In this document: piece by piece, positions 48,671-64,000 of the stretch
Layout: every line of letters begins with the position of its first letter
Numbering within the stretch: the stretch's first letter is position 1
Assembly (NCBI RefSeq): GCF_029873635.1
Contig: NC_080423.1
Span: 92,733,691-92,797,690 of the forward strand
Reading direction: 5' to 3'
Source: Malania oleifera
Lineage: Eukaryota; Streptophyta; Magnoliopsida; Santalales; Ximeniaceae
DNA length: 64,000 nucleotides
Translations under genes and position numbers: made by a program
Notes under the pieces: model-generated
Database searches by the model: none
The model's input: the letters and a program-made list of their open reading frames with translations, nothing else
What the model was told of the DNA's origin: nothing

Positions 48671-51600
48671 GTCCAATCGTGTATCTCCAACATTGAGACT
48701 CAATTTGAAGTGAAGAAACTTGCCAGCAGCCAATGGTTTTGTTAAGACATCTGCAATTTGATCTTTGGAGCTAATGAAAGAGACTTTAAGCATGCTGGCA
48801 GCCACCCTATCTTGAACAAAATGAAAATCAATATCCATGTGTTTTGTTCTTGAGTGAAAAACTGGATTAACTGATAGTTACGTCTCCCCTAGATTGTCAC
48901 ACCATAAAGTAGGAGTTTGAGAAAGTTTGATGCCAAGTTCACACAACACAGTTTGTAACCAAATTAGTTCAACTGCCGAGGAAGCTATAGACTTGTACTC
49001 AGCTTTCGTTGAGGATCTAGCAACAATCTGTTGCTTTTTGAAGCTCCAAGAAATGAGGTGTTTGCCAAGATAGATGCAAAAGCCCCCCGTGGAGCGACGA
49101 TCATCTGGACAACCTCCCCAATTGGCATCCGAGTAAGCTTGAAGAGTGAGACTTGATTTGGAGGCAAAAAAGAGATCATCATTTATGGTGGCTTTTAAAT
49201 ATCTGAGAAAACGCTTCACCGCACTCCAATGAGATGCTTTTGGGGAATGCATGAATTGACAGACCTTGTTGACTGAGAAGGAAATGTCTGGTCTTGTAAC
49301 CGAGAGATATTGCAAGCCTCCAACATAGCTATGATATAAAGTAACATCCTCAAAATCCGGGGTATCTGATTTGGACAATTTTAGGGAGGCAATCATTGGT
49401 GACGAAATAGGTTTGGCATGAAGCATATTGCTGCGGTAGAGAAGATGCTTGACATATTTTCTTTGGGATAGAAAAATACCATCAGCGGTGTAATAAACTT
49501 CAATACCCAAAAAGAAAAATAGAGGACCAAGATCTTTTACTGGAAAGGCAAGTCCCAAATCATGAATGAGATCGGTGATGGCGGACTGTTTGGAGGATGT
49601 GATGACTATATCATCCACATAAATGAGCAAGTACATATGAAGATCATTGCATTTAAGAATAAACAAAGATGGGTCAGCTCTAGATGCAATAAAGTCATAA
49701 TCAAGGAGCCAGGAACTTAACTGAGCGAACCACGCATGTGGTGCTTGCTTGAGCCCATAGATAGCTCTCTCAAGCTTGTAGACGTGGGAAGGCCTAGAGG
49801 GATCCACAAAACCTTGAGGTTTGTGCATATAGACATCATCAGAGAGCACACCATGTAAGAATGCATTTTCAATGTCGATTTGATGTAAACACCAGCCACG
49901 AGAGAGCGATAGATAAAATAAGCCGAATAGTGGAGGGTTTGACGACGGGGCTGAATGTGTCATGGAAGTCAACATTTGGTTGTTGATGAAACCCTTTTGC
50001 AACAAGACATGCCTTCTGTCTCTCAAAAGAACCATCAGCTAGAGTTTTTGTGCGAAAAACGCAATGACATCCCAATACATTCATGTGAGGTACTAGCGGT
50101 ACCAAGGTCCATGTCTGATTTTGTATGAGAGCATCGTATTCTTTGGACATGGAATTCTTCCATTCTATGTGTTTGATAGCCTTGGAAAACTTGAAGGATC
50201 ATCTAGTACACTTGCAGAGACAGTGAGACAATTTCGAGTTGGATACAACATGGTTCCATCAATAAAACTCCGTGGACGAGATGAATTAGTGTGAGATCGA
50301 GTGACGATAAGGGGAACAAGGTGGGATAAGACAAGGATTAGGATTAACCAAAACAAGGGATGGAGGGAGATCGGGGGAAGGATTAGGGGGCAATATTGGT
50401 GAGAGGATTGGGCAGGAGATGGAGGGAGATTGAGTTGGGCTGGGAATAATAGGAGATGGAGGTGCACGGGTGCTTGGATGTGGGCCTAAGATAGAGGAGG
50501 GAAAGATGGGTAAAGGGTCTGGCTGGGAGGGAGATGGATTAGAAATTGGGTTGGACTTGGTTTTGGAGAGAGGGAATGAATATTCATTGAATATGACATC
50601 ACAAGAAATGTACATGCAATTTGTGTTAAGATCAAGACACTTGTAGCCTTTATGTGCTCGACTCTACCCTAAGAAAAGACATGGTGTGGATCGGAAGTTC
50701 AGCTTGTAAGAAGAATATGGTCAAAGGTTGGGCCAACATTCACACCCAAAAACTTTAAGAAATTTGTAGTCTAGTTCTTGATGATAAACCAAGGAGTAGA
50801 GAGATTTGTTCTTTAGGACTGGAGTGGGTAAGAGATTGATCAAGAAAACCGCAGTTTCAAAGGCTTCAGGCCAATAAAAGAATGGAAGAGATGGGTGGGC
50901 CAAGAGTGCAAGGCTTGTTTCTAAAATGTGACGATGCTTTATTTCTGTAAGGCCAATTTTTTGGTGAGTATGAGGGCATGAAAATCTGTGAGTAATGCCA
51001 AATTGTTTGCAAAAGGTGGTGAGAAGTTGAAACTCACCTCTCCCATCTGTTTGTAATTAAGGTGATGAGCTTGGTGATAAAAAAAACCTTTCAATGAATG
51101 GTAAAAAGGTGGTGAAAATTTGGAAGACATTGAACTTTTACTTGATGAAAAAAATCCAAGTGAAGCATGTAAAAGAGTCCATAAATGAAAGATAATATCT
51201 ATAGCCATTTTGTGACAAAGTGGGTTGGACCTCATAGGTCAGCACATAACAATTGTAATGGCCTGGTATAAAGGGCCTGTTTTGAGGAAAAAGGAAACTG
51301 ATGACATTTTTCTAGGGGACATTCGGAACATTAAAACACATAATCAGTGGGAGATAATGGAAGGTTTTTGGACTACTGGACTTGAGAGACCAAGTTTAAA
51401 GAAGGATGACCAAACCTTCGATACCATTGATCCATGGAGGTTCGTTCGCCAATATGGGCTGATGGAGATGATGGAATGGTTGTAGTGGATGGAAAATGGT
51501 AGAGACCATCACAGGTTGGACCAGTGAGGAGGATGTTCCCGATTGTCTTGTCCTTCACACAGAAATGAGTGGAGTGAAATTCAAAATAGTAAGAATTATC

Positions 51601-53155: not shown

Positions 53156-53520
53156 GAGATAGACAGACGCAATAGTTATGATAAGATCAAGCACCTAAAT
53201 CTATCAAAAACCCCAACCTCTTATGTCTTTAACCATGATAGGAGGGTTATTCAAACCCTTGCCTCTCCCTTATAGAGTTAAAGGGAATAAACTAAAGGGC
53301 TTGTGGTAGAGTGGTCTTATTTTCATTTTCTTTTTGAAGAAAAAGAAAATTTTACTTTTAATTAGACCCTTTATTTTAGAAAGGCATAGAAATTTATGAT
53401 TTATTAATCTAGTTATAAATTAGTTATAGCAATGGAATGCGCCTAAAATAATTGATACACACACACACAGTTTTTTCCCATTTTATAATTAAGAAGAAAT
53501 AAAATATAAAATAATACTCT
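53156..53520. other. Spacer between Copia and the Mutator-like element
   Basis: AT-rich, with a short (AC)n run at 53458-53469. No gene or recognisable repeat. Confidence 0.5.
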
Positions 53521-53555
53521 AATTGGGAAATTTTTTCCCAAACTAATGCTCACGT

Positions 53556-54200
53556 AATCTCGCAACTTCATGCTGCGAGATTTAAAAGCGAAACCAATGA
53601 GGAGCTAACGCGTGGCAGCATGCAGAGAAAATCTCGCAGCTTCATGCTGCGAGATTTAAAAGCGACGCCAATGAGGAGTTGACGCGTGGCAGCGTGCAGA
53701 GAAAATCTCGCAACTTCACACTGCGAGATTTAAAGAGACAGACAAACATGGTGGTGACACGTGACGGTGGAAAAATCTCGTAGGTTAGTCCTGCGAGATT
53801 TGCGCTATTACCCTTCTTTGCAAATTTAAATTTAAATAATAAACATTCCCTTTTATTAAATTTAATCATAACTTTCCCTTAAAAATATAATTTAAACTTA
53901 AATTTTAAATTTTAAATTGTAAATATATAATTGAAAAAAAAATTTACATAAAATAAATTATTGATTATAAATAATGGGAAAATCTCGCAGGTTAGTCCTG
54001 CGAGATTTGCGGTTCTATTTACTCCCTTCTTTGCAAATTTAAATTTAAATAATAAACATTTCCTTTTAATAAATTTAATCATAACTTTCCCTTAAAAATA
54101 TAATTTAAACTTAAATTTTAATTTTTAAATTGTAAATATATAATTTTTAAAAAAAATTTACATAAAAGACATTATTGATTATAAATAAGTATTTTGTCAT
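53556..54200. repeat. Left terminal region of MULE with five palindromes
   Basis: Palindromes at 53556-53583, 53629-53657, 53703-53731, 53773-53801 and 53980-54008 share the stem AATCTCGCAG / CTGCGAGATT. The first three sit in units of about 74 bp with CAATGAGGAGTTGACGCGTG. The fourth and fifth head a duplicated unit of about 208 bp of AT-rich DNA (TTGCAAATTTAAATTTAAAT). Confidence 0.85.
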
Positions 54201-56355
54201 AAAAATTTGGATAAAATCCAAAAAAATATTTCAAAATATGATTCTAACCCCTGAATTTACAAAAAATACTACAAAATTTCGTATAATTGAATTATTGACG
54301 AAATGAATATTTTGTTAGTTGACTATTAAATGCATGTGGAATAATAAAATTTGTCCTTAATAAAATGATATTTTAAAACTCGTGGATTAGAGACCGAAAA
54401 AAAATTTCGAATTGAATGCTTTGATGCTTTGTGCCAACTAATTCTTTAAGTATGACAAAAATAATTTGTATTATTTCAAAATTATCTAAAAATATAATTA
54501 GAAGAAATAAATTTTTCAATAAGTTATAAAAATGCCTAATAATTATAATGCTGCAAAATGTTTATTGGATGTAATATTTAAAATTAACAATTAAACATTT
54601 TGCAAGACAAAGTTAAATTTATTATTTAAATTTAAATTTAAATTTGTAAAAAGGGAAAGTTATAATTAAATTTAAATTATAACTTTAAAAAATTAAATTT
54701 TAATTAAATTTTATCTAAAGAAATAAATAACAAAAAAAAAAAAAAAGTTTTAAGTAAGATTGAAGCTCTGTAGAGCACATGCAAAATTAATGGGAAATAG
54801 ATAATGAAATTTGATCCGTGAGTATCGTGAGTTGACAAAAGCTAATCGTGTAAGGAGTGTGACTATTTCTAACACAAGCTTAATCAACTCGAAAACAAGT
54901 ATGAAGAACTAGTTAGCAGCATTAAGACTCTAATTTACATATGTAATTATAAATATTATATTACATGCATATAGTCTCTCTAAGGAGTGTATGAAAGATA
55001 ATAGCAGCATCAATACCTCTTCGTACGTCTTAATTTTTTTGTTTTTACTCTTTTTTATTATATTTTGACTATCCGCATACTAAACCAATTATTTTGACCC
55101 ATCGTTTTGGTGTTTGAAAGTAGGATTTGGGTCAAATTGGATTATTGTTAGAATGCTTTTTTGTCTTAGTCACCCATTCATATTAAAATAATTAAATTTT
55201 AAAAAAATTGAGTCTAATTAAAAAACAAAAATAATAATTATCTCTACAATTCCTTTGACAAAAGGCATGTCTATTGCTAAATTAAAATATATAAAATATT
55301 CAAAACACAGAATATATAGTTCAATTTGCCAGGTTGCGCTTCAAGTTAATAATAAGCTGCACTGTGAGAAAGGAGGAAGAAGGCAGGGATATTTCATGAG
55401 AACGAGATTTATTATTATTTTCTTTCTAGTTCAAAAATTGGACCTCTCTCGCCTTGACGCATGTGTGTAAAAATGAAAGTACAATATTATTTATATAAAA
55501 TTAAAAGATAATAAAAAAAATGTAACATTATTTGCGTGTGGAAACAAATATTTTTAATTTTTCAAAGAATTGTAAAAATATCAAATTCATTTTTTATGTT
55601 CTAAATTTGTATAAAAAATTTTAAATATATTTTTATTTTATATATTTTTAATTTATTACTCGAATACGTTCATTAAAATATTATTTTCATGAATGTAGAG
55701 AAAACCATACTAAACTTTTTGTAATTATTCAAATTTAAATTCAAATGCAAAATTAACGATTCTTACATGTTGTAACTACATGCAGTTTGAACTTTAAATT
55801 TGGATAGTTAATTAAAGTACAAGTTTAGAGAAATCATGAAATAAACTTTAATTAAGGATATACATACTCTCAAAATTAATATATCACTTAATCAATAATA
55901 TTTTGTTATTAAAATTAATATACGTAATTAATTAATATACTTTAAGACAAATTGACTAGGAGTTTAATCGAGAAACATATATTAAGTGCTCCCTAAAATT
56001 TTCGGTGCATGTAGTATATGGCGGTGAGGGGAGGTTAACGTGTAAATGTTTAGAGTGCTGAAACATGTTTGCATCTGACGACGCACGTAAATGCATGCAG
56101 ACATACAAATTTGAGCAATACGAATTTTGCAGTAAAAGACAATTCAATTTAAGGAATTAATTTAACTAGACATGCAAATTTAGACGATACGAATTATGTG
56201 TCATTTTTTAGATTTGGCAGTATTGAATTCTTTAGAGATACGAATTATTAAATGATATATACAAAAGAATAAAAAAAATAATCAATTATATACAAATGAA
56301 ATCAAAACAATCAATTATATACATACAAATAAAATGCAATTAAAGCAATGCTAAA
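54201..56355. other. MULE interior, AT-rich, no gene
   Basis: AT-rich DNA between the left terminal region and the PMD gene. About 54615-54720 holds partly inverted similarity to the AT-rich unit at 53820-53970 (AAAGTTATAATTAAATTT). No coding frame supported. Confidence 0.5.
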
Positions 56356-58570
56356 CTACTCCGTGCCGCAGCAAGGTCGTCTCCGGGGTCGTGGTGGCTG
56401 CCGTCTGCGTCTACCCTCTCCTTGCTCCTCAGCACCATCAGGTGTCCTGACCCGTCGTGTTGGATGTGAATCCTCTCCCCCACGAGGTGCTACATCATCA
56501 TCATCAGCCATGCGGAGCGCACGCGGTGAGAAATGATACGATGTCTCGGGATGAGAACGAGGCGGCCTAGGGGGTGCATCGACCTCCACCCCATCGAAAA
56601 GATCGTCCAATAAAAATGACATGGATGGGGTAGCAGCATAGTCGGATGGGGCATCAGTCGGTATGCTCGATAGTCCGGCAATATGAGCTGCAGTGGAAGG
56701 CGCATAAGGCGCTGACGGGCCGAACAAGTACTCGGCCTGTACGACTAGTGGGGAGGACATGGGAGTCCCTGGACGACTAGAGGAGGCATGTCATCCTCCT
56801 CGTACTGGAGTTGGTCGACCTCCTCATTCTGGGATCCGTTGACCGTCCTCGTGGACGAGGTCCAGTGCAGTACTCATCAATCGGTGGATCGCAAGATCCG
56901 ACGAGATCTGGTCTGCCTCAATGACTATGTCAGCCTGTAGGATATGAACATATTTTATTAATGCATTGAAATCGGAACGTATATATAATAAAATGAGTTG
57001 TGGCATTAATCTTCTTACGAGGCTCAAATATACAGCTGCGGTCTTATCGACGAAGCGGCGTGTGATAGACCTATACCAAGTGAAGTATGGGTCATCTAGA
57101 CACATCGGACTGTGCTCCGCCACTCCTCGTACGATGTAGTCTCGCTGATGCTCTTATGCAGTGACGAATATTGAGTGCGTACTCGACCAGTCTGTGACCC
57201 CTCGACCGCGCCCATCCATGCCGTGGAGATCGTTCCCAATAATATCTACCCCCGAAGTCATAAATGGGGCGAGAATAACCTGTCGAAACCCGAACTATCG
57301 CATGACTCGATCGGGGAGATACCACTCAATAATATGAAAGCATATGAGTGGCACTCGCGCTACCCACAGGTCCCTCCCGTCTGCATAAGCAGGCGGCATG
57401 TCGGCTAAAATCTCATCCGTGTAGGGCATCCATATAAACTACAGTTAGACAAAACAAAAAGTTAAGCGGACTATACACAATTGAAAGAAAGAAAGAAATA
57501 CTTTCATGTGCTATACTTTAACTGATTTATACCTCATGCTCCTGGTGCATGTCCAACTCGAACCTGTACCAGGGCAATGTATGAAACGCAACCATCGATG
57601 CCCTCAAGTCATCCCTCCATCTATATAAGATGAAATGTAAGTTCCCAAATGCAAGACTACTACATATTACGAATTAGTATTCGTAATAGTTATTGAGTGA
57701 ATGAGAAGGGATAGATAAAATTTATACTAACCGATATGCAAGTGGGAGAGGATCAACCGGATGACCGTCTTGACCCCTCTCAATCTGCAGGAAACCTCGC
57801 CGCGTAGGCGCGAATGAAGGAAATCTCTCCCAAGCCCAAACTGGGAGTAAGCGAAGGGGGCCCGCAATCTGTGTCTTCGAGTGGTGCACGGCGCGACACA
57901 TCTCCCTGTACAACCACGCCAAAGTGGCGGACCCCCAACTGTACGAGTGACACGCTCCGAAGTCCTCAAGAAGTGGAAGGAACATAAGATGCGCATAACT
58001 GCCAGAAACATTCGAGAACATCACCTCACAAATCAAACGCAACAAGTGGGCTCGTGCGTGGCATGCTATCATCTGAACATCTGCATGTGCCAGGAGCTCA
58101 CGAAACGCATCCCCCTCAAGGAACCGCATACGGATGCGTGCACCAACCAACTCGCTGTCAGGCGGAACGACGCCTAAAAAACACTCGCACATAGTATGCA
58201 GGGCGAGTCGACCCTGATGGTCTGTAGGTCCCTCCACTGGTCCGGTAATGCGACCAGTGATAGCTCGCCCATCAATCGGCAACCCGAACAAAACAGCTAC
58301 GTCCTGTAATGTAACGGTGGCCTCGCCATGAGGTAGGTGGAACGTGTGCGTCTCGGGTCTCCATCGCTCCACCAATGATGTGACAAGATGCCAATCAAGC
58401 TGGATATGAGCAATCCGATAAATGCCATAAAACCCCGCATCACGTATCAGCTGGACAATGCGGGGGTCTATCTCTAACCAACGCTCGGCAAACTGCGTGT
58501 CCCCTCGGCAGCACAAGGGCTCCGTATGCCTATCAGCCCACACTCGACTGGCCCTGTGATGATCGCCCAT
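56356..58570 (-). pseudogene. Plant mobile domain (PMD, MAIN-like) protein, broken
   Basis: Exons inferred from splice sites: 58570-57732, 57620-57533, 57438-57019, 56934-56356. The PMD is clear: FAERWLEIDPRIVQLIRDAG, HIQLDWHLVTSLVERWRPET, TFHLPHGEATVTLQDVAVLF, GLPIDGRAITG, then LPWYRFELD and FHIIEWYLPDRV. This is the domain of MAIN/MAIL1 and of proteins labelled serine/threonine-protein phosphatase 7 long form homolog, in both host genes and transposons. Introns are 111, 94 and 84 bp. Stops TAG (57295-57297), TAA (57154-57156) and two TGA in the tail (56824-56826 and near 56791) break it. The C-terminal tail is basic and Pro/Arg-rich. It starts about 120 bp after the transposase stop on the same strand. 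An in-frame ATG upstream at 58738 overlaps the transposase end; the ATG at 58570 was preferred. Confidence 0.85.
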
Positions 58571-58689
58571 CGTCAAGACGCTCGGATCGGACGGCCCTGG
58601 ATCAATCTTGGAAATGCATCGTTGCATCAGAATAGGTATATACAAAAAAAAAAAAAACGGTGTGAAATAGTTTAAAACTGCATACGACA

Positions 58690-61315
58690 TCAACGGGACG
58701 GTCCCGCTGCATCGCCCGAGTGGGTCCTTCTCGGACACCTTGTGCGATTATGCCCTTCTTGATGACATATACTGCACGTGCTCCTTTTCCTACCTTCCCT
58801 AGCCTCCATCTCATTATGTATACGGGAGCTCCTTGGACGACCTTTATGTCGAGCATATGCTGGATTTGCCTGTATAGTCGGCAACGACGATGCTGGCCAG
58901 TACGCCTCGTGCATAATCGGCTGAAAATCCATCGCATATGTCGCATAATGTTCGGCGGTGCTCCAACAAGGCTCAACGTACTGCATGACGTTGAGTCGTG
59001 TCTCCGCACATGCAGCGAGAAGGTGGGAGCATGGAAAATGTAAGGCTTGCCACTTCCCACACGAGCAGCCGTGCAAATCCTGAATGCGCAGCGTTTGCAC
59101 GTTGTTTCCTTTATGAGGTCCCAACTGCACAGTCGTGATGCTAAAAGTACCTCTAGACTGGTTGAACGTCATCACGTGATGTTCGGTCGCCTTCAACTTC
59201 CTTCTTTCCATCGCAAGCAATATATAAGGAGTTAATGCATTTCCTCCCGATATTGCATTACGAGCAGCCTCACGTCGACTATTGAAATAATGTGCAACGC
59301 AATAAAATGTCAGTTGCACAAGGGCAGTGATTGGGAGGCTACGAGCGCCCTTAAGGACAGCGTTGAAACATTCGATGAGGTTTGTCATCATGTTCCCATA
59401 CCTTGTGCCCCCATCGTGGCACTGAGTCCACATATGAGGAGCGACTTGATCAAAGAACGTCTTCGCGGGTTCCCCACCCTCATCGAAGATCTTCTCCATC
59501 CACATGTTAAACTTTCGGACCTGATGCTCCCTTCCAGCGTGCTCAGGCATTCGGTTCAGATTGACAATGTGCACTTTCGTGCTGAAGTTGCTTACAACGT
59601 GTCGAAGGCAGAATCGGTGGTGCGCACACGGTGGCTGCCAATCGGGATTGTGAGACACTGCAGCGATGATCCCTGGATGCCTATCTGATATAAGGCAAAT
59701 GTCGTCCCTATCGGTAATGGAACGAAGACAACACAGAAACCAATTTCATGTGTCCAAACTTTCCTCTTGCACAGTAGCGAATGCAAGGGGAAATATTTGC
59801 CTATTTGCATCCGGGCATGTCGCAATAAGGAGTTTTCCCTTGTACTTACCGTACAAGTGTGTCCCATCTATATATCACAGGAGGACAGTGGGGAAAACCC
59901 TGAATAGATGCTGTGAACGCCCAAAAGACTGATACAAATGTTACGGTCTGATCGCTGCCTGGTATAGGGTTCCACCTCCACTTGACGACAGTACCAGGAT
60001 TATAAGTGCACATTGTTTCCATCCACCTAGGCAACGTCTGATAAGACTTCTCCTAATCGCCGAATACTTGGGCAATTGCCTTCTGTTTTCCTAACCAAAT
60101 TTTCTTATATGAGATGGAATAGCCAAAACGACGATCTATGAATTCTTTCAATGTAGCGATTGAGGTCGATGCATCACCCCTTATCATATTCACAATCTCA
60201 CTAGCAATAAGGGACGACGTGATTTGGCTATGGTCTTGCGAGAGGAGTTCATTCAAGCATGTGTGCGGACCACCCTATTGAGTGATTTCGAAGAATCGAT
60301 GTTTCTGACGATACATTGCACGCAGTCTCCAACTGCAATCAGAGTTCTTACACCTAACAACCCATAATAGTGGGGTCGACTGCAGGACGTGGAAGTCATG
60401 GTGCTTTCGAGCGTGGTATATTCGCACAGTAGCTATCAATTGATCTTTCGACCCGAATAGCATCCCTTGACTCAGTTCTGATGATTCATCCCAACGAGTT
60501 ACCCATATAGGAAGCTCGTCACCATGGGACAAATCTGCAGCATCTACGTCAATTACACCATACATAGGAGGTTCGACCATGAAATCTGCCGTATACGTGC
60601 CATCGTTCAATTGACGGGGGGGTGGGTCGACATCATCGGGGGACTCGTTCGTCCCTTCACCAATTTCCTCCTCGTACGTGTCATCTTGTAAATGAACATC
60701 GTTCGTGATGTTCATCCCCACGTCCAGCGCATTGTTCGCTAGTGCGAACAACAATCCTGGTTGTTCTGCTGAAACATCTTCGCAAACACCATGATAATTC
60801 GTATGAATAGTAGTTCCTTCGTACGTCTGCGCCTCGAATGACGATCATGGACATTCTTTTATATCCGCAACAGGCATCCCACCAACATCTGCATCTTCTT
60901 CCTCCGCTTCAACCACGTGCTTAATAGACGTTCCCGGCTGCCTATGTGCGGCGACACCCATCTGAGGAATGAGTTCGACATACAGTTGCACAGTCAAATA
61001 TGTCGTCCCTACGCAGTGTGCATCCAACACCATGCGCAAACCGTAATCACTAGTTACGGGAACAACCTCATAGAAGATTGTATCATGATGCCCTTTAATC
61101 GGGTATCTTGCGATTAACCGCAATACATATTGATTTGGATCAATTTGCAAATACTTGTATATCTTCGTATGCAATTTAGTTAATTTACACCTATGACCAA
61201 TTTTAATAGGTTGGACTGGCGGAATACTATAACTAACACCGGTTTGGCCGGTTATAATGTTACCCCCCATGTACAACAATACCAGAACCGGAATACTGCT
61301 TGAACTTCCTGCCAT
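58690..61315 (-). pseudogene. MULE (MuDR-type) transposase, broken
   Basis: About 875 codons from the ATG at 61315. Residues 1-150 are the N-terminal region with VSYSIPPVQPIKIG. A MuDR-type domain (60450-60250) has GMLFGSKDQLIATVRIYHAR and CSWRLRAMY. The MULE DDE core has Asp in DGTHLYGKYKG (codon 59866-59868), Asp in LISDRHPGI (59683-59685) and Glu in TNLIECFNAVL (about 59372), about 104 residues further. A SWIM zinc finger CSCGKWQALHFPCSH (59023-59067) and a C-terminal CCHC knuckle CSICHQEGHNRTRC follow. Breaks: TGA 60845-60847, TAG 60275-60277, TAG 60053-60055, a frameshift just before 59868, and TGA 59746-59748. All catalytic residues remain, so decay is recent or mild. Confidence 0.9.
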
Positions 61316-63760
61316 CTAGATTGACGCCCGGTAAATATAAAAGACCTACGCAAAATAATAATTTTATATATAAGTCGTATGCTAAGTGAATAGTGAACAA
61401 AAATTATTTTCAATACGTTCATGTGCATGCAATATTCTCTAAATGTTTCACTTGTTAGTTTGAAAATATTCTTGCATGCAATTCTGACTTCTCTACGAAA
61501 AGTTGTATCGAAATTTGGGCAGCATGCCAAGTGTAATTTGATCATTTACCCATTTTTACAATGACCCTTAAACGTTTGCAGACAATATAATAATATAGTT
61601 GAAGCATGCGAGAACCTATGATATCTACCAACATGCAATTCACATCACTGCATCAGCCATGCAGGAGGCATTTAAATTCGCACTTAGAAAACAAATACTT
61701 TTAGGTATAACATATAATATCTTTGAAATTTTTTTGTAAGCAAGCCTTCAATTATTGCGTGTGTCACAAATATTTATTTAATATTTCATACAAATTAATT
61801 AACATTTTATATTTATATTATATAATAAAATTAATTATATATATATATATATGTATGTATATACATATCTCAAATATAGATTCAAAAACTCCAAAACATC
61901 ATGTGTCATCGAGTGTATACTAAATAATTAACTTTTAATTCCTTCAACTTATATGCATGCGACTATCATATTCACATTGCTTCCAAACATTAATAAAAAA
62001 TTATTTTTAATATATCATTTATCTCTAATGAACTCATCTTGTCACTAATTTAGAAAGTTATTTTTTATACATAAGAAAGAAAATGAGATTCATTTTTCTA
62101 ATTTTTTCTTAAACAAAATTTGGGAGGAGTGAGAATCCACACATCAGTTATGATTCAAGTTCAAGTTATGTTGAATTTTATCTAAATTGTAACAAATTTA
62201 TATATAAAGTTTCAAATTTGTGTCATCAAATACAATATAATTTACAAATTTTGATAAGTCAATATAGAGAAGTGATGCGAAAAGCTTGATGAAGATGACA
62301 CTACAATGATACATATAAATAATTATCTCCCAAAGGCAACTAGTTAACCACATACCTTTTGTCATTTATATAGTTTGTATTATCAAATTCCAAACACAAA
62401 CAAATCATAGTCATGTGTAGTAGATCGGATTGTACTCTAACAAAAAAATTTGTATGATTTTGGCATGGAGCACACTCAATATGAGTATATAAGACTACTG
62501 TTGAACAAGTTAAATTAACTTAAATATAACCTTTTAACTTTATTATTAAGCATTTATAGATCAACAAACTACAACTTATTTGTTACTATAAGATAATTAT
62601 ACAATAGCAAATTTTATAATACTTTTGAAATCCCGAGGAAGATCAATGAAATTTTTAAAAATTTTAAAAAATCTTCACTGAAGTGCAAATGACTTGATTT
62701 CAATATATAGTTTTTGGATTCCAAATTTGGAGGGCTTCTCATTGGGATGTAAAAATTATATTTTGGAAGATTGAAATTAAATTAGAGAAGTAGTAAGAAG
62801 ATAGTCAATGATATTTTGAATTGTTTTGACCAAAATTTTAACCATAAAATTACGTATCCATATGTATATTCATAGTGGTTCATAGTAAATTAAATTCAAG
62901 TTAAGTTCAGCAAGTTTAAATTCAGTTCTAATTATTTTGTACATGATGATGTTACTCGTTTGATTACGAACCACATGTAAAAATGGATGGATCATACTAC
63001 ATTCAAAGAGTTGTTATTTTGTATATTATTACCATAAAAAAGAACTATGGTATTGAGAAGGGGGGGTTAAAGAAAAGGGGAAGCACTTGAATTATTGAAT
63101 ATGATTATTAATAAGTTTGTAGAATGATCATACTTTAAAAGAAAAAAAAAAAGGTTTTTAAAATTGATCAAGATAACCAAACTATATTATAATATTCTTC
63201 AATGGAACCACACATCCGAGGGTAGTATTGTCGCCCTTGTTACGAATTAGGAAGGACTTGTAATACCCATTAGAAATGGCATTGTGCATTCCAAAATAAC
63301 CTTATCAAAGTGAGTTAAGACCCACAAACAACACAAAAAATACAAACAAACAAATGTCCTAAACACTATTTCTTCTGTGATATTAATGAATATGTAAATT
63401 TAAAATATTGAAGATAAAATTTGAAGCATTAATATTTGATCAATATACTTTTTTTTTATTTCAAATATTCAGATTATATTATTAAAAATTTACATGATTA
63501 TGCGGAGTATATACAAATACTATTAAAGACATAAACGTTAATGAAATTATTAATTAAAAAAACTAACATTCCTCTAGATGCAGCAACGAACCCAAATAGT
63601 CGGAATGCGGCGTGTGATATCAAACCAACTCAAAACATAAATAATTATCTCATGTAAATCTCAGTAAGTTAAATAAAATATTCACATTTTTTTCTAAATA
63701 TTAAATAACATACCCCATCTTCGGCCCTTAAATAGCCTCGCCTCGCCTTCGCCCGAGCCC
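61316..63760. other. MULE interior upstream of transposase, AT-rich
   Basis: It must hold the transposase promoter, but no clear TATA box stands out. A box at 61630-61660 (CAACATGCAATTCACATCAC then CATCAGCCATGCAGG) recurs at about 13908-13955. (TA)n lies at about 61835-61852. No further gene supported. Confidence 0.5.
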
Positions 63761-63889
63761 AAACGGTCACCTGCACCTCGAACGATCACCTGCCAATGCA
63801 ACGGTCCTCTGCAAGCTCGAAGGTCTGCAACTTTTCTCCCTTTCTCCTTTGCAGTATTGTGTTTTGTGAAGCCTCGGGGAGGAATTCAG

Positions 63890-64000
63890 CAGACGAAGCA
63901 AATCTCGCAGAACCATCCTGCGAGATTTACCACGTGTCACCACGCGGATGGATGTCAGGCGCAAATCTCGCAGCTTCGTCCTGCGAGATTTTCGCCACGC
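63890..64000. repeat. Right terminal region of MULE with two palindromes
   Basis: Palindromes at 63900-63928 and 63963-63991 have the same AAATCTCGCAG / CTGCGAGATTT stems as the left end, and the ACGTGTCACCACGCGG box between them is the inverted form of GTGGTGACACGTG at the left (about 53750). The region continues past the window. A GC-rich, promoter-like stretch (63720-63890) lies just inside it. Confidence 0.8.

Follow-up and report, generated by a model that had tools for sequence, protein, structure and literature searches.

The right-hand part of the 64-kb stretch analysed here (the window, G000:C7:92733691-92797690, which belongs to a 1.494-Gb genome assembly) contains a Mutator-like element (MULE), which carries a transposase gene and, directly downstream on the same strand, a gene for a plant mobile domain (PMD) protein. 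The element extends from 53468 to the window-equivalent position 64288 (10,821 bp), and its right end, 288 bp past the window edge, was located in the contig sequence adjoining the window. Both genes lie within its inverted ends, which read GAGTTTTTTCCC...GGGAAAAAACTC in the family, the first base at the left end being changed in the window copy. The original prediction had proposed matching inverted ends and an outer right end beyond the window edge, and both were found; its left border (53524) fell 56 bp short of the true end. The features in the window are as follows.

53468..64000, minus strand: Mutator-like element, window part
53469..53586: 3'-end terminal inverted repeat, aligned over 118 bp with the opposite end at 93% identity
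53556..53582: palindrome AATCTCGC-N11-GCGAGATT, outermost of the five 3'-end sites
53981..54007: palindrome, innermost 3'-end site
56359..57444, minus strand: PMD exon 3, coding for the last part of the PMD domain and an arginine-rich tail; identity to the L020 exon 83%
57722..58627, minus strand: PMD exon 1 with lead-in; the PMD match covers about 58435-57794, and the conserved exon start lies near 58606
58690..61315, minus strand: MULE transposase gene, broken
63901..63990: pair of 5'-end palindromes, starting at 63901 and 63964

The window copy is a dead, decayed member of a large two-gene Mutator-like family, since its transposase gene contains four premature stops and one 2-bp deletion. 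L018 (L numbers denote other places in the same genome) has an open transposase of 875 amino acids (aa), to which the window gene is 95.8% identical in nucleotides. The catalytic-region and SWIM motifs of the window transposase are still legible, which is why the gene had been described as having intact DDE and SWIM residues; the motifs stand, but the frame is broken. Against Pfam, it gave a SWIM match and a DBD_Tnp_Mut match just under the cut-off. Open transposase frames are present elsewhere in the genome, with 875 aa (e.g. L018, L030) or, in a second subfamily, 884 aa (L026); the L018 protein matches PF10551 (E 6.8e-19) and SWIM, and L026 matches both as well. The PMD gene, which had been placed next to the transposase on the same strand, was confirmed there by Pfam (PF10536, E 1e-49); its exon 1 is open in the window copy, but the splice-acceptor AG is mutated. 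It had also been assigned to a MAIN/PP7-long-form type, and the scanned PMD exons gave no match to a phosphatase (PP7) domain.

Transposase and PMD genes move as one unit

Nine further copies were obtained as paired stretches, and both ends could be placed in six of them. All six showed perfect target duplications of 9-11 bp directly outside the two end motifs, small variation at the outermost end bases being allowed when the duplications were placed. Both genes lie inside the duplications of these six copies, with part of the PMD gene lost from L022 and L030. L020 and L032, with one clear end each, and L026, of the second subfamily, stand outside this count. A target duplication had also been sought for the window copy, which is inserted in a (CA)n run, so that its own duplication is unreadable. 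With 118-bp aligned inverted ends and six perfect duplications, the family has the termini of a MULE. Furthermore, L024 is inserted in a tandem repeat, and in the units next to it the target occurs once, without an insertion, with 8/10 and 9/10 bases identical to the duplicated site (compared by eye). The flanks of different copies have no detectable similarity to one another, and the insertions are therefore independent. The transposase and PMD genes thus form a single mobile unit with many copies.

A genome search with the window transposase segment found at least 124 places at 82-100% identity, and a search with the L026 transposase found at least 125; combined, they gave at least 231 distinct places in two subfamilies. 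Among the matches listed, a PMD lies at most 3 kb downstream on the same strand in 70 of the 124 places. For 20 of the remaining 54 (18 of the 20 best-scoring places and two of the second subfamily), the downstream DNA was fetched, and a PMD was present in 20/20; the other two best-scoring places are L022 and L030, where it is present but partly deleted. PMD sequence was accordingly found in 92/92 transposase places examined, of at least 124. Starting from PMD, 101 of 203 places are linked to a transposase at 42-171 or 541-627 bp, and a PMD upstream of a transposase or on the opposite strand within 4 kb was seen in 0 places, both among the matches listed. Because of this recurrence, the two tight spacings and the lack of any wrong order or strand among these matches, the arrangement is not a chance neighbourhood of unrelated sequences, an explanation for which nothing spoke, already refuted by the six target duplications as well and of negligible probability.

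The other 102 of the 203 PMD places are without a transposase among the matches listed, and some of them are probable host genes; 13 fetched stretches bear on these places. Family transposase sequence was found upstream on the same strand in L008, L058, L060, L061 and both arms of L063, and no transposase was present in the DNA fetched around the PMD of L001, L002, L003, L004, L006 and L059. L001-L004 and L006 are probably host genes, because their proteins are distant from the element PMDs. A search with the 3' end gave 40 places, of which, among the matches listed, 30 have a correctly placed and oriented PMD, 18 have a transposase and 8 have neither within 9 kb. L064, a non-autonomous element of 1.6 kb, has palindromes and inverted ends of about 550 bp that are 91% identical. 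Its 10-bp duplication, read by eye, contains one mismatch; L064 gave no coding match and was presumably moved in trans.

These results agree with the original prediction that other copies would share the two genes and the ends and that the PMD gene belongs to the element, as judged from the shared ends, the duplications, the 92/92 places and the purifying selection described below. Of the two observations that it named as speaking against this, a duplication that excludes the PMD gene was not seen in the six copies; ends without PMD do exist in short copies, but L064 has no transposase either, and the objection does not hold in its strong form.

The PMD gene is under purifying selection

The ratio of nonsynonymous to synonymous divergence (dN/dS) was calculated by the Nei-Gojobori method with stops skipped. 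For PMD exon 1 between the subfamilies, it was 0.16 over 50 pairs in a first pass and 0.14 over 48 pairs without L054; stop-free copies gave 0.15 over 14 pairs, at a dS of about 1.5, which is near saturation. The transposase gave 0.20 between the subfamilies (36 pairs, range 0.08-0.54) in the first pass, and 0.15 when fully open copies were compared with L026 (4 pairs). The rows of L054 (subfamily 2) and L015 (transposase) had frame trouble, and their omission from the recount changed the ratios little. At lower divergence (dS 0.82), the PMD ratio against L061 was 0.21, and against L008 both PMD and transposase gave 0.32. The ratios within subfamily 1 were 0.43 for PMD and 0.44 for transposase, as is to be expected with many dead copies. 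PMD exon 3 gave 0.26-0.28, with 0.18-0.21 for the domain part and 0.32-0.33 for the tail. L026 and the window protein share 68% identity in PMD exon 1, and the transposases of L026 and L018 share 77%.

Since the PMD ratio of about 0.15 is like that of the transposase, the PMD gene is no passive passenger, and the conclusion that it matters to the element is well supported. In the PMD tree, each subfamily forms a clean group, the deeper forks being unsettled; a single PMD capture that predates the subfamily split is likely from these comparisons.

Structure of the PMD gene

The PMD frame (...IDPGPSD) starts immediately after AG|GAT(T/C). Among copies with an unchanged coding motif (26 rows representing 25 distinct places, L014 and L036 being one copy), the splice-acceptor AG is present in 20/25 and absent in the window copy, L040, one L063 arm, L061 and L007. 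The upstream sequence of subfamily 2 is quite different, but still ends in a splice-acceptor-like TTT..AG (4/4). Where L007 has its ATG, the aligned codon reads ATT or ATC in the element copies, and L061 has TTC there. The element PMD exon has no start codon, and an upstream exon is therefore needed for translation from the exon start; several splice-donor candidates lie within the transposase frame, none of them decisive when scored with a donor matrix. In intact copies, transposase and PMD occupy separate open frames and the PMD exon begins at the splice acceptor. In L061 and L007, a single open frame (454 and 468 aa, respectively) spans the transposase N-terminal region and PMD, and L061 looks like a deletion that joined the two.

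The element PMDs are 25-31% identical to the L001-L003 proteins and 34-41% identical to the L004/L006 proteins of the same genome, which we take to be MAIN/MAIL relatives of the PMD-C kind; by its identity to them, the element PMD is taken to be of the C kind too. With its PF10536 match and this identity, the PMD lies inside a MULE as in the MULE-PMD definition of Ikeda et al. (2017, PMC5418596). A PDB search with PMD exon 1 of the window copy gave no chain at E up to 1, and an AlphaFold2 model of the L001 PMD (13 sequences) was unusable (mean pLDDT 39.9).

Two divergent forms were also noted. The open 468-aa frame of L007 (G000:C7:39146334-39147731) combines a divergent transposase N-terminal region (30% identity) with a PMD (49%); a genome search with it found no close copy among the matches listed, the next being L061 (48% identical), and L007 may be a domesticated gene or the relic of an older lineage that carried PMD. 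L005 and L059 form a further PMD lineage with about 40-46% identity to the element PMDs, and about 1.8 kb downstream of L005 lies a distant transposase piece in the opposite orientation.

Palindrome arrays at the element ends

The palindrome sites at the 3' end start at 53556, 53630, 53704, about 53774 (one half site mutated) and 53981. At the 5' end, one more full site and half sites follow beyond the window edge. When perfect pairs of AATCTCGC and GCGAGATT 3-25 bp apart were collected from nine subfamily-1 contigs, 54/54 had the N11 spacing; unpaired half sites are also present in these contigs. The one subfamily-2 end examined (L026) holds a single perfect site, in which half sites and N11 are unchanged but the inner bases are TA...TA instead of AG...CT, besides several decayed palindromes. 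Across the genome, 850 exact matches to a wider pattern, AAATCTCGCAG-N(5-12)-CTGCGAGATTT, were counted, compared to 0 for the reversed control, and the middle is 7 bp in every case among the matches listed. The fixed spacing points to a dimeric DNA-binding protein, either the transposase or the PMD protein, as the one that would target the palindromes. The 'DOWN' motif of MAIN/MAIL1, CATGCAGTTT, was also considered as a target within the element; it occurs once each in the window copy and L034, and was rejected.

Comparison with known systems

That MULEs encode PMDs, and that these may counter silencing, has already been published. Ikeda et al. (2017, PMC5418596) described PMD-C proteins fused to MULE transposases in grasses and Amborella, inferred two captures and suggested an anti-silencing use, which was repeated in a 2021 review (PMC8616336). 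The family described here likewise pairs its MULE transposase with a MAIN/MAIL-type PMD; it differs in having the two in separate open frames of the DNA, which splicing could still join, and in that selection and end structure were measured. What the present analysis adds is the selection acting on the PMD gene, its layout in a frame apart from the transposase, the array of palindromes and the DUF1985 lead described below. PMD-C of eudicots is described as mainly genic (Nicolau et al. 2020, PMC7156037), whereas the PMD here is borne by a MULE in a host that is probably a eudicot. The evidence for the host is weak: an rpoC2 fragment scored highest with PDB 8w9z (1077 bits), ahead of 8xzv (1049) and 8qma (1016), the chains of tobacco, spinach and white mustard, and all comparators were eudicots. 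The element PMD shares its family with the host genes MAIN, MAIL1 and MAIL2, which differ in acting in silencing and gene expression (PMC7156037, PMC9899485). In tea, 175 phased-siRNA (small interfering RNA) loci lie at PMD genes (PMC10673657); no MULE is named in the available portion of that paper, and these loci would fit a large transposon-borne PMD family in tea. Our searches of the open-licence literature gave no earlier description of this two-gene family. Maize MuDR, with mudrA and mudrB, is likewise a two-gene autonomous MULE, and we know of no relation of its MURB protein to PMD.

VANDAL elements are also of the Mutator type. Their anti-silencing protein, VANC, contains DUF1985 and binds motifs in non-coding tandem repeats (PMC5735166). 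As in VANDAL/VANC (PMC5735166, PMC10398659), the second protein of the family varies more than the transposase, and motif repeats lie in non-coding DNA; the inverted repeats here are long and well kept, whereas those of VANDAL are degenerate, and the motif here is a fixed-spacing palindrome, compared to a 9-base motif for VANC21. The element PMD is, moreover, weakly similar to the DUF1985 domain of VANC. When 13 PMD proteins were scanned singly against Pfam, 8 matched DUF1985 (E up to 5) and no third family was matched; these proteins are not independent, and the element copies among them are represented by exon 1 only. The best match was that of L006 (E 1.1e-4), followed by L004, L007 and L059 (below 0.01), the window protein reaching 0.27, and the matches cover profile positions 76-140. 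We regard this similarity as a weak lead on homology. DUF287, in which the element PMD differs from VANC, had no match at E 5 in the same 13 proteins, and the L020 PMD exon 3 matched PMD alone when scanned at E 0.01. No open-licence paper containing both 'DUF1985' and 'plant mobile domain' was found.

Possible function of the PMD protein

Because of the analogy with VANC and the weak DUF1985 similarity, we favour the explanation that the PMD gene, kept by selection, serves the element through VANC-like anti-silencing, and we give it an even chance of being correct. Gene 1 encodes the transposase, and gene 2, the spliced PMD gene, would encode a helper of the element. The PMD protein would work like the VANC of VANDAL elements: it would recognise the terminal repeats of the element, directly or via a partner, counteract host silencing so that transposase expression becomes possible, and act in trans on other copies.

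Several observations weigh against this explanation. The DUF1985 scores are under the curated Pfam cut-off (22.6 bits at best vs 35.1), 5 of the 13 proteins (L001, L002, L003, L026 and L061) had no match, and our own genome search gave no DUF1985 match, which does not prove absence. The end palindromes may be merely transposase binding sites, and the published motif CATGCAGTTT is in none of L018, L022, L024, L028 and L030, and is thus unconserved in the element. Large parts of PMD are missing from L022 and L030, both of which have clean ends and target duplications; PMD may thus be dispensable in cis, although the missing parts may also have been lost after insertion. Lastly, host MAIN and MAIL1 act in silencing, which is the opposite direction (PMC5418596, PMC7156037).

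The PMD protein could instead help transposition as a second DNA-binding protein, perhaps made in part as a spliced transposase-PMD product, that helps to assemble the ends. The fixed-spacing palindromes at both ends would suit such a role, as would the PMD exon without its own start codon behind a conserved splice acceptor just after the transposase and the single frames of L061 and L007. However, the PMD-deleted copies argue against it unless they were helped in trans or lost the sequence later, and to our knowledge no link of PMD to transposition has been found; we therefore consider it rather unlikely, although the published MULE-PMD cases are transposase fusions (PMC5418596). Less probable still is an interference with the host, in which the PMD protein would compete with or recruit the MAIN/MAIL1/PP7L complex and alter host silencing generally instead of at the repeats of the element. 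The 34-41% identity to L004/L006, the presumed MAIN/MAIL relatives, is consistent with this, and MAIN and MAIL1 do occur in a complex with PP7L (PMC7156037), but the conserved repeat array is left unexplained unless it serves the transposase.

Passive capture in the manner of a Pack-MULE is already contradicted, and we judge it very improbable. A Pack-MULE holds a captured gene piece, without its own transposase and without selection, whereas this element has its own transposase and a PMD with ratios between subfamilies of about 0.15 (exon 1) and 0.26-0.28 (exon 3); a PMD is present in all transposase places examined, and in L018 the PMD exons and the transposase are all open. MULEs do pick up gene pieces, and a capture has been inferred for PMD (PMC5418596); passive capture would be revived if the subfamilies had captured PMD independently, the constraint then predating capture.

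A wider reading, which we offer tentatively and regard as possible rather than probable, is that PMD and the DUF1985 domain of VANC are branches of one superfamily. MULEs of distant lineages would then use the same kind of sequence-specific anti-silencing protein, aimed here at arrays of palindromes in the ends, which would change in step with the element; MAIN/MAIL would be related to transposon anti-silencers. If true, the DUF1985 similarity would connect host silencing factors with such anti-silencers. A use of PMD by transposons was suggested in 2017, and whether the gene matters to the element is now answered by selection, which equals that on the transposase in a family of more than 200 listed copies. 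Since the family supplies open copies, PMD-deleted copies, short non-autonomous derivatives and a candidate target motif, the anti-silencing idea is directly testable.

Additional observations

L030 keeps an open 875-aa transposase despite its PMD deletion, and L022 and L030 are natural controls. L063 (G000:C2:151079300-151082050) is an inverted duplication with two 1230-bp arms, 99.2% identical and 279 bp apart, each with a transposase tail and PMD exon 1. A transcript across it would fold into a long hairpin, like that of the maize Mu killer locus, and small RNAs made from it could silence the family. Close to the element in the window, an open frame at 48878-50035 (minus strand) has an RVT_2 match and belongs to the remains of a Ty1/copia-type retrotransposon.

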